Assembly: GCA_030068145.1 (NCBI GenBank)
Contig: JAPJBO010000373.1
Location: forward strand, 62,001-126,000
Reading direction: 5' to 3'
From: Diplonema papillatum
Taxonomy: Eukaryota; Euglenozoa; Diplonemea; Diplonemida; Diplonemidae
Length of the DNA stretch: 64,000 bases
The notes under the pieces were generated by a model, which saw nothing but the letters and a program-made list of their open reading frames with translations, searched no databases and was not told the DNA's origin. The position numbers and the translations under genes were made by a program. Within the stretch, counting starts at the first letter, position 1. Each line of letters begins with the position of its first letter. This document shows positions 55,050 through 60,087 of the stretch, one piece after another.

Positions 55050-57343
55050 GGAAATGTCAGCGCGGTAGCGATGACAGCGAGAACACATATAGGTGGGAGG
55101 GGAGAGGCCCTGGGACTGCTAAGGCGTGACAACCGCCTTACTGCTCTCGGGACTCCGAATGGTAGGGTTGGAATGGCGGTGACATGGACGCGCGCGTGGT
55201 GGAGATGGACGGGAGGGCCCACAACCCGTCCGGTGGAGCGCGTGGTGCGGGTGGACGGCCGCAGTCGGGCGGACGAGCCGGACGACGAGCGGCAGGCCTT
55301 TGGTCGCTGGGTGAGGAAGCGACCGAGGGTGGACGGGGGAAGGCGCCGCGGGGACGGGTGCGGCCGCCGTTCGCTCTCGCCGACGTGGGTGCTTGCCGTT
55401 GGGGGCCCGCAGCCGGCCGGTCGCGGTGGCCGTGTAGGCGGAGTGGGTCGGGATGCGTCGCGTCTTGCAGGGCTGCAGAGGCGGCTGCAGGGCATCGCGG
55501 GCGGGCTGGCGGTGTACGACGAAGCCCCGGACAACGTGTCCAGCTCGACCTACTCGTCGACGCCCTCACTTCCAGGGTGTCGAGTGGCTCCGGGTAGGCG
55601 GGCGGACGCGGGGCTCCCTCTGGCGAGGGTAACGTCGAACCGCATCGACGTGGAGGCGTTGGCGGCGATGGACGGTGTCGGTCGATTCCGCGAGGTGCTG
55701 CCGATGTTGATGGATCCGGTAGCGTTTGCGGAGGCGTTCGTGTCTGGGGACGCCGCAGGCGGGTGCCGGGTGCCGTCGCGCGGGATGGAGCGACACCGGG
55801 CGACTCTGCGGTCGTGCGGGGTGGCGAGCGACGCACGTTCGCGGCCGGCATTCGCGATGAAGGCGTTTACCACGCCGAAGAAGGACGGACGAACGGCACG
55901 TCTCGTTCTGGATGCCCGGCCGCTGAACGACGCGATGCGCCGGCCGCCCAGCATGGACCTGCCCCGGCTGCGCGACTTCATCGCCGAGGTCGAGAGGCAC
56001 CGGTTCGCCATGCAGTGCGACGGCGTGTCGTACTTCTACCAGTTCCCAGTAGACGCGAGCATTTCGCGATATTTCGGGATTGGTATGAAGGGGTGCGACA
56101 TGCTGTTGAACGTGCTGTGCATGGGGTGGTCTTGGGCGCCGTGCATTGCGCAGCGCGCGTCGAACGTGCTGGTCCGGGACCTGGGCCTCGCCTGGGTGGA
56201 CAACTTCCTTGTCTTGGGTGGGACGCTGGACGAGGCAGAGCGGAACGTGGCCGTTTTTCGGAAGCGGGCGCAGGCGGCGCGGGTCGAAGTGCGGGCGGAA
56301 GGCGACGACGCGCTGTGGCAGGTTCGCTCGCGGTTCGTGTGTGTGGGTGTGGAGTTCGACCTGGCTGCCGAGACGCAGCGGCACAGGCTCGACCCGGCGT
56401 GGGCGGAGCGGTGGGTCGGCGGCAGCGGGATGACGGCGGTGCTTTCCGGCAGAGCGACGGCCCGACAGTTCGCCGAAGTTTTCGGGGGCGCCGTCTGGGC
56501 GACGGACATCCTGGCAGTGCCCCGCTGCCACTTCGCGGCGTTGCTGTCGTTCGCGGGAAGGCTCGGCGGGCGCATGGTGGACGCCGCAGCGCCGGTGTGG
56601 GACGAGGTCGTCGACGTTCCTCCGTCGGCAAGACGGGAGCTGGGCGCGCTCCGGAAGATCGTCCGGGAGAACCCGTGGGTCGTGGGCGGCGTTCCTGAGG
56701 ACACAGGGAGCGTCCTGTGGACGGACGCCAGCTCGCGGGCGTGGGCGGCGCTGCTGGAGGCGGAAGGCCGGTTCGTGGATGGGCGGCAGGGCGTGTTCGC
56801 GGGACCGGACGCGGACGCCCACATCAACTTGAAGGAGATGTTGGCGTTCGCGGAAGGTGTGGTTCGGCTGTGCTGGGCGCCGGGGGCGCAGCGGTGCCGC
56901 ATCGACAACGCGGCGGTTGTCGGCGCCGTGGCGAAGGGGAGTTCTTCCTCGTACGCCGCGAATCGCGTTTTGTCCCGGTCTCTTCGTGTTGCCGAGCGCA
57001 GAAGGATCGTCCTGTGTCCTGGCTGGGTGCCGTCCGGCGAACAGCAGGCGGACCCGTACACGCGGGGAGCCTCGTTGCCTCGATTCCCGGCGCCGCTTTC
57101 CGCTTCGCGGTGACGTGCCACACCCTTTGACTTGTTTTATGTGTTCTCGGAAATGTCAGCGCGGTAGCGATGACAGCGAGAACACATATAGGTGGGAGGG
57201 GAGAGGCCCTGGGACTGCTAAGGCGTGACAACCCCGCCCCTGTCCCTCCCAGGGAGCCACCCCGAAACTAGCCTGCCCACCTGACGGTGGGGGCCCACCT
57301 GACGGTGGAGGCCCACACCCTTTGACTTGTTTTATGTGTTCTC
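55050..57343 (+). mobile_element. E1: DIRS/PAT/Ngaro-type retroelement with split direct repeats
   Basis: A1 55050-55134 and A2 57149-57233 are identical 85-bp repeats (GGAAATGTCAGCGCGGTAGC...). B1 57118-57148 and B2 57313-57343 are identical 31-bp repeats ending TTATGTGTTCTC. The order A1-ORF-B1-A2-B2 is the split-direct-repeat structure of tyrosine-recombinase retrotransposons. CT tracts flank both ends and there is no target duplication. Only an RT-RNase H ORF is present. Confidence 0.75.
55173..57113 (+). CDS. E1 reverse transcriptase-RNase H
   Basis: 646 aa from the ATG at 55173; an in-frame ATG at 55071 within A1 is also possible. The N-terminal ~200 residues are Arg/Gly-rich and unassigned. 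RT blocks: FAMKAF and RLVLDARPLND (motifs 1-2), MQCDGVSYFYQFPVD (motif A, Asp), MGWSWAPCIAQ (motif B), LAWVDNFLVL (motif C, Asp-Asn where Asp-Asp is usual). RNase H: LWTDASSRAW, HINLKEML, CRIDNAAVV and EQQADPYTRG, supplying D-E-D-D. It copies the element's RNA. The altered motif C may mean reduced activity. No tyrosine recombinase or gag-like ORF follows. Confidence 0.8.
   Translation: MAVTWTRAWWRWTGGPTTRPVERVVRVDGRSRADEPDDERQAFGRWVRKRPRVDGGRRRGDGCGRRSLSPTWVLAVGGPQPAGRGGRVGGVGRDASRLAGLQRRLQGIAGGLAVYDEAPDNVSSSTYSSTPSLPGCRVAPGRRADAGLPLARVTSNRIDVEALAAMDGVGRFREVLPMLMDPVAFAEAFVSGDAAGGCRVPSRGMERHRATLRSCGVASDARSRPAFAMKAFTTPKKDGRTARLVLDARPLNDAMRRPPSMDLPRLRDFIAEVERHRFAMQCDGVSYFYQFPVDASISRYFGIGMKGCDMLLNVLCMGWSWAPCIAQRASNVLVRDLGLAWVDNFLVLGGTLDEAERNVAVFRKRAQAARVEVRAEGDDALWQVRSRFVCVGVEFDLAAETQRHRLDPAWAERWVGGSGMTAVLSGRATARQFAEVFGGAVWATDILAVPRCHFAALLSFAGRLGGRMVDAAAPVWDEVVDVPPSARRELGALRKIVRENPWVVGGVPEDTGSVLWTDASSRAWAALLEAEGRFVDGRQGVFAGPDADAHINLKEMLAFAEGVVRLCWAPGAQRCRIDNAAVVGAVAKGSSSSYAANRVLSRSLRVAERRRIVLCPGWVPSGEQQADPYTRGASLPRFPAPLSASR

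Positions 57344-60087: not shown

Follow-up and report, generated by a model that had tools for sequence, protein, structure and literature searches.

Two short retroelements of Diplonema papillatum with split direct repeats and a single RT-RNase H gene: candidates for the use of a tyrosine recombinase in trans

Two neighbouring retroelements, E1 (55050-57343) and E2 (57470-60087), lie in a 64,000-nucleotide stretch of contig JAPJBO010000373.1 of Diplonema papillatum (the window), with their open reading frames (ORFs) in opposite directions, on the forward strand in E1 and on the reverse strand in E2. They are best explained as recently amplified, short members of the assemblage of retroelements with split direct repeats, whose coding content is one protein with reverse transcriptase (RT) and RNase H domains. 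We give somewhat better than even odds, roughly 0.57, to the reading that they are reduced elements of the VIPER/PAT/Ngaro type which use a tyrosine recombinase (YR) in trans. This reading is favoured because E1 and E2 share their architecture and a related RT with YR-bearing elements of the same genome, because the ends are exact in most of their copies, and because of a GA overlap at one insertion site and a hairpin at the E1 unit junction. If it holds, RT elements that lack a YR and evolve under purifying selection amplify beside YR-bearing relatives, and site recognition and trans-complementation in YR retrotransposons become testable; if no YR is involved, these would be RT-only elements with a route of their own into microsatellites.

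Repeat architecture and copies in the genome

In each element a LONG unit (A1-ORF-B1) is joined to a SHORT unit (A2-B2), and CT/GA tracts surround both elements (Table 1). The E1 LONG unit spans 55050-57148 and the SHORT unit 57149-57343 on the forward strand; A1 and A2 are 100% identical, and B1 extends to 57148, B2 to 57343. Read on the reverse strand, the LONG unit of E2 runs from 60087 to 57650 and the SHORT unit from 57649 to 57470. A1 and A2 of this element are identical over all 125 nucleotides (nt), B1 equals B2, and A2 overlaps B2 by 20 nt. On the plus strand both elements start with CTCGGAAA; relative to its own ORF, E1 lies in the CT sense of the tract and E2 in the GA sense. The window holds only three perfect CT/GA tracts of at least 16 bp, all at the borders of E1 and E2. 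The preliminary description had read the A1-ORF-B1-A2-B2 order as the mark of PAT/Ngaro/VIPER-type ends and had assigned a single RT-RNase H ORF to each element. Repeat alignment and genome copies bear out the split repeats and the single ORF (forward to 57113 in E1, reverse 59855-57840 in E2), and elements of this genome that encode a YR share the architecture.

We searched the genome (271 Mb, 2910 contigs) and scored the best 40 of 1078 candidates for E1 and the best 40 of 610 for E2. Near-full-length E1 gave at least 40 matches at 98% identity or more (at least 48 matches in total) and near-full-length E2 at least 40 at this level; these copy numbers are lower bounds and biased to intact copies, as the best-scoring ones were fetched and truncated ones under-sampled. 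The exact A-end pattern of E2 occurs 591 times genome-wide and the exact A-start pattern of E1 247 times. With the window copies included, the next unit after LONG is SHORT in 25 of 28 E1 cases, the others being a lone LONG unit (L027), a copy with truncated A2 (L032) and one that is not assignable (L008). The corresponding figure for E2 is 9 of 12, leaving a lone LONG unit (L011) and two copies cut by contig ends (L018, L019). Because near-full-length copies are many and SHORT regularly follows LONG, the combined structure is not due to chance. Other combinations occur, namely LONG-LONG-SHORT (L004), LONG-SHORT-SHORT (L006, L028) and SHORT-LONG-SHORT (L013), and SHORT units are also found solo in the same tracts, and in tandem.

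All fetched copies spanning at least 97% of the unit keep the frame open once L005, L007 and L009, duplicates of the window copy or of L021, are left out: 27/27 E1 units (658-659 amino acids (aa) in 26, 647 aa in L028) and 11/11 E2 units (672 aa). Ratios of non-synonymous to synonymous substitution (dN/dS) were taken from seven partial divergent copies (at most 95% identity, at least 250 bp; the rest were dropped). They are 0.15 (L004), 0.16 (L023) and 0.16 (L029) for E1, and 0.09 (L013), 0.08 (L028), 0.33 (L001) and 0.02 (L031) for E2, so that six of seven fall within 0.02-0.16, at dS between 0.19 and 0.96. On these comparisons the RT-RNase H protein appears to be maintained, mostly by purifying selection.

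The RT-RNase H protein and its recombinase-bearing relatives

The E2 protein matches RVT_1 over the Pfam cut-off (E=2.8e-10) and the E1 protein under it (E=0.008); E1 is assigned as an RT mainly because of its 29% identity to E2 over 509 aa and the joint profile. The same identity speaks against the earlier view of E1 and E2 as two unrelated families. Among solved structures, the joint RT profile is matched best by the RTs of cauliflower mosaic virus (CaMV), Ty3 and human immunodeficiency virus (HIV). Four columns D-E-D-D, which we take to be the RNase H motif, are invariant in the five sequences aligned (E1, E2 and the YR-bearing families F1-F3 described below). What is presumably RT motif C reads WVDN, not YxDD, in E1 and F1-F3, and WYDD in E2; WVDN is kept in 27/27 fetched E1 units. 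An AlphaFold model of E2 had a mean predicted local distance difference test score (pLDDT) of 31 and was not used, and a search for relatives in viral contigs gave 60 pattern matches, none of them confirmed.

No recombinase, integrase or nuclease family of Pfam, PF00589 included, matches the E1 or E2 ORF at E<=1, in line with the earlier statement that both lack a tyrosine recombinase. By BLASTP at E<=1e-3 the two proteins match neither the YRs of this genome nor the gag of the F elements, a search that a very divergent gag could escape, and their N-terminal 160-170 aa likewise match neither gag nor YR at this threshold.

Full-length relatives, which the preliminary description had suggested looking for, do exist in the genome. 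A search with PF00589, in which the best 150 of 1099 candidate places were scored, yielded YR ORFs among which lengths of 554 aa and of 521 aa each form a large group. Two of the elements (L063, L064) carry overlapping frames in the order gag-like, YR, RT-RNase H (RT/RH), the gag-like one being open, and a third (L061) has the same set with a shorter gag frame; gag is assigned in these F elements from position and mutual similarity only, and the L063 gag frame has no Pfam match. PF00589 is matched over the cut-off and RVT_1 under it in L063 and L061, while L064 is a place found in the PF00589 genome search. L063 is built as A1-ORFs-B1-A2-B2, and so is L064. Some 10 tandem SHORT units of 216 bp follow the full YR element in L064 (4985-7244), a possible route to satellite DNA. 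L061 contains at 5408-5620 a chimeric SHORT unit with the A half of family F1 and a B half of F2/F3 type, the two meeting at a GCGTTCAAC motif that they have in common, which looks like template switching between families.

RT/RH identity is 48% between F1 and F2 and 73% between F2 and F3. Over about 500 aa, E1 shares 38%, 37% and 36% with F1, F2 and F3, and E2 32%, 29% and 28%. By identity E1 is thus nearer to the YR-bearing families than to E2, and the two may have been reduced independently. The RT phylogeny proposed earlier was run on five rows without an outgroup; E2 sits on a long branch, and the E1/F1 order, which concerns one of the two inner branches, is not settled by it.

With these relatives at hand, two readings that would explain E1 and E2 as debris can be weighed; both had been named in the preliminary description as possible refutations. 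According to the first, they are dead internal-deletion derivatives of gag-YR-RT elements that retained the RT. Deletions do occur, as seen in L062, a gag-YR copy without RT. This reading is very improbable, given the many near-identical copies, the open ORFs in all fetched near-full-length units, the mostly purifying selection (dN/dS of 0.02-0.16 in 6/7 comparisons) and the N-terminal region without gag or YR match. The second, that they are fragments of ordinary long terminal repeat (LTR) retrotransposons, can appeal to the RT profile with its closest matches in CaMV, Ty3 and HIV. We find it scarcely credible, since E1 and E2 have split repeats in place of LTRs and SHORT units that occur alone or in tandem, Pfam shows neither an integrase nor a protease, and the relatives read in the genome encode a YR. 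These searches did not turn up an intact relative that has true LTRs and encodes an integrase.

Penelope-like elements have a TERT-like RT, a GIY-YIG nuclease and a pseudo-LTR (pLTR) ribozyme. An assignment to them was rejected, the RT being of LTR/pararetrovirus type, with no nuclease and no Rfam match at E<=5. A ribozyme at the unit junction, of retrozyme or Penelope-like kind, was likewise discarded (0 Rfam matches at E<=5).

Among published elements, VIPER of kinetoplastids is closest in form: in the parts of PMC6681497 consulted it is given as A1-ORFs-B1-A2-B2 with gag-like, YR and RT/RH ORFs in the order of the legend, and SIRE as its short truncated version made of A2 and B2 with an internal part of about 30 bp of its own. 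The split direct repeats and the lone A2-B2 unit recur in E1 and E2, and the SIRE internal part is comparable to the middle segment of the E1 SHORT unit. SIRE thus resembles the solo and tandem SHORT units, in contrast to the LONG units, which keep the RT. The F elements have RT/RH beside a YR, in the gag-YR-RT/RH order with split repeats, as in VIPER. DIRS1 has this ORF order as well (passages of PMC3266345), so order alone is insufficient to class the F elements as VIPER-like. VIPER differs from E1 and E2 in having gag-like and YR genes, whereas they have RT/RH only and are found for the most part in CT/GA microsatellites. The Ngaro elements described from Cafeteria in the sections of PMC8547959 consulted have the structure A1-[ORFs]-B1A2B2, solo AB repeats and four nucleotide-unrelated types per genome, with some copies lacking ORF1 and the YR as ORF3 after RT/RH as ORF2. 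Split repeats, solo AB units and several types per genome are thus common to both; unlike E1 and E2, these Ngaro elements keep the YR, and a microsatellite target goes unmentioned in those sections. TATE of trypanosomatids, a YR-type element found as tandem clusters at one position of the telomeric hexamer repeat (same parts of PMC6681497), is similar in its simple-repeat target and tandem clusters, but comes under a figure legend that lists Gag-like, YR and RT/RH ORFs, and its target is telomeric rather than CT/GA. Measured against the order DIRS (PAT/Ngaro/VIPER-like), E1 and E2 have the split repeats and a related RT-RNase H, and no YR and no gag match. Among titles and abstract openings, a search that left subscription papers mostly outside, and in passages of PMC12477816, PMC3266345, PMC3783388 and PMC4157794, we found no description of an RT-only element of this assemblage lacking a YR.

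Insertion sites, junction hairpins and the route of integration

The preliminary description had offered two options, a recombinase supplied in trans or another integration route, and the YR-bearing relatives of the same architecture keep the first one alive. We infer the following replication steps, circular form and acting YR. RNA across A1-ORF-B1-A2-B2 would be copied by the element's own RT, and the internal B1/A2 copy would restore the joined ends to give DNA with a B/A junction, in circular form. A YR acting in trans, from the gag-YR-RT/RH relatives or from a longer sibling that shares these ends, would exchange strands between the B/A junction and a target at a short matching overlap (TC/CTC for E1, GA for E2), which would explain why the ends are exact and why CT/GA tracts are so strongly preferred. 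A SHORT unit on its own would be the equivalent of SIRE or of a solo AB repeat.

In 27 of 28 E1 copies a pyrimidine run of 16-89 nt (lengths followed to about 90) adjoins the element on the left, the remaining copy (L004) being fused to another unit. For E2, purine runs of at least 9 nt flank 8 of 12 copies on the left; the exceptions are L015 (gacgacgaaga), L020 (a GA/GTGGGTGAGT minisatellite), L013 (fused to a SHORT unit) and L019 (aaatgtcga, with its right side beyond the contig). L015 is inserted in GACGAAGA and L017 in GAA. Ends are exact in most fetched E1 and E2 copies. The 591 E2 A-ends divide into 203 internal junctions, 268 that follow AGAGA and 120 that are neither; the pattern itself includes GA and is hence uninformative on whether GA is obligatory. 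The F elements occupy T-tract sites and have T5 at the B/A junction. Other repeated segments of about 100-450 bp also end in or beside CT/GA tracts (L002, L011, L013, L032, L036), so some tracts may belong to those repeats. A CT-inserted element with only 37 bp of the E2 end (L002) was found once and dropped.

L015, located in the acidic-tail portion of a repeated gene, provided an empty site. A query made of its two flanks with a single GA between them (joint at position 300) was searched in the genome (best 40 of 2344 candidate places scored). The paralogues matched it at 99% from its first position to 343-347, uninterrupted across the joint, and the matched stretches are as long in the genome as in the query (e.g. 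347 bases, C1840). Beyond this they differ from it up to 444, the start of a second match of 85-155 bases. The empty site is taken from match coordinates, not letters, and represents a single case within repetitive coding sequence. As GA is found there once and flanks E2 on either side, an overlap or a duplication of 2 bp is indicated. Elsewhere a target-site duplication would be masked by the microsatellite flanks.

Such tracts also invite a YR-free entry, in which cDNA with TC/GA ends or read-through CT/GA tails anneals homologously, or in which nicks or breaks in the tract prime reverse transcription. The long pyrimidine and purine flanks (27/28 and 8/12), the opposite senses of E1 and E2 in the tract relative to their ORFs, and the lack of a YR with CT/GA specificity among the PF00589 places examined would all suit it. 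L015, inserted in a coding tract rich in GAC/GAA without any net length change other than GA, and L013, at the edge of a GA tract, fit it poorly, as do the exact ends in most fetched copies (truncated ones being under-sampled), which recur in the YR relatives at T-tracts. On balance we hold YR-free entry to be unlikely.

The B/A junction folds as one long hairpin with the left arm formed by the end of B and the right arm inside A. Compared with dinucleotide shuffles (200 for E2), RNA z-scores are -5.8 for E1, -6.2 for an E1 variant, -7.9 for F1, -7.8 for F2 and -7.7 for F3, and DNA z-scores -7.0 for E1, -2.05 for E2, -5.6 for F1 and -5.2 for F2. When windows were scanned against composition shuffles, that of the junction surpassed all 40 random ones in E1, F1, F2 and F3. 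By raw energy, windows at least as stable number 49/221 in E1, 185/253 in E2, 0/400 in F1, 36/460 in F2 and 9/457 in F3. Inspection suggests compensatory stem changes among E1 variants (TGTCA/TGACA versus GGTCA/TGACC) and between F2 and F3 (AGTC/GACT versus AGCC/GGCT). Hairpins common to E1 and three YR families point to a possible position of the recombination site and resemble, by analogy, integron attC sites in form. A literature search on attC together with retrotransposons listed one integron review. A further alternative is that E1 and E2 are self-sufficient, minimal RT-only elements with split-repeat ends whose hairpin-folded, attC-like single-stranded cDNA ends, or tract-primed cDNA, would be joined by host enzymes; this new integration route we regard as unlikely.

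A longer sibling could also carry the YR. Pairing of E2 ends (first 100 places listed per search, 53 distances) gave 20 at 2438-2443 bp, 10 at 2530-2562, 9 at 3902-3927, 4 of SHORT length and 10 others. One 2561-bp unit has the tail of an E2 relative, with 86% identity across the RNase H portion. The nine intervals of the 3.92-kb LONG class, with E2 A-end and B/A junction, lie on contigs C1, C2, C9, C76, C158, C166, C178, C179 and C254, and their extra length of about 1.49 kb would accommodate a YR or gag gene. The pattern GHxxRR matches E2 units at about 858 or 884, which is GHSFRR of the E2 RT protein, and has a single match in each of the intervals of C1, C2 and C9, at a distance of 2342-2348 nt from the A end. 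Since the match is shifted by about 1.49 kb, the class looks like E2 with that much added upstream of the RT. The added part has no GHxxRR box in C1, C2 or C9, where a variant box would escape, and 0/9 intervals hold a PF00589 place among the best 150 of 1099. The pattern is loose (1737 matches against 1493 for the reversed control), and it matched 7/7 in-range PF00589 places; its result speaks weakly against a YR in this class, and we consider such a sibling rather unlikely. An inverted junction in L001 was considered as the source of the class and dropped, as it occurs once in the genome. Visual inspection of the first 100 E1 A-starts out of 247 did not reveal a longer E1 class, neighbours being mostly about 2.1 kb apart.

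Several observations weigh against supply of the YR in trans. No YR lies near the E1/E2 copies, where the preliminary description had proposed to look: in a comparison by eye of 80 E1/E2 places with the best 150 of 1099 PF00589 places, the nearest is about 26 kb away (C60). A YR with CT/GA specificity was not found, the YR families examined using T-tracts. For E2 the fold is weak (RNA z -1.55, 14/200 shuffles as good), and its junction does not surpass all random windows in the composition scan. A circle with two equivalent B/A junctions should often place SHORT before LONG, and this order is seen in L013 of E2 only and in 0 E1 units. L015 is a single site at which 2-bp overlap and 2-bp duplication are indistinguishable, and one stop each interrupts L001, which also has the higher dN/dS of 0.33, and L004.

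Separate RT-only and YR-only partner families were also considered and set aside: L062 is one RT-deleted copy, L058 is truncated differently, and a YR-only family is unsupported. Open YR frames of 418, 523 and 379 aa occur in L042, L048 and L055, presumably Crypton-like, with no E1/E2-type RT match in these loci of about 3.5 kb.

Feature coordinates and the host gene

Table 1. Features of E1, E2 and the bordering tracts in the window
Feature	Position	Strand	Basis or remark
CT tract left of E1, target side	55025..55049	.	tract scan
E1 A1 repeat	55050..55134	+	100% identical to E1 A2
E1 RT-RNase H open frame	55137..57113	+	first in-frame ATG ~55173; RT motif C (presumed) WVDN
E1 B1 repeat, LONG unit end ...GTGTTCTC	57118..57148	+	repeat comparison
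E1 A2 repeat, SHORT unit start	57149..57233	+	B1/A2 junction hairpin folded on ~57127-57196
E1 SHORT-unit middle segment	57234..57312	+	matches confined to SHORT units of examined E1 loci
E1 B2 repeat, element end	57313..57343	+	repeat comparison
CT tract, 129 bp, E1 to E2	57341..57469	.	tract scan
E2 SHORT unit (A2 57649-57525, B2 57544-57470)	57470..57649	-	repeat comparison
E2 B1 repeat, LONG unit end ...GACCTTTTCC, then GA	57650..57724	-	repeat comparison
E2 RT-RNase H open frame	57840..59855	-	672 aa; RT motif C (presumed) WYDD
E2 A1 repeat, LONG unit start GA, then GTTTGAATAG...	59963..60087	-	repeat comparison
CT tract right of E2, target side	60085..60105	.	tract scan

A family search found phosphofructokinase (PFK) matches in the ORFs 51007-52341 and 52585-54624, which mark a putative phosphofructokinase-like host gene. 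The short downstream exon (60147-60386) has no family match in this search. The preliminary description had placed two unrelated families in one intron; the relatedness found above removes the first half of this statement, and its second half fits a predicted GT-AG intron at 54626-60146 that would hold both E1 and E2 and join in phase 1 to the downstream exon.

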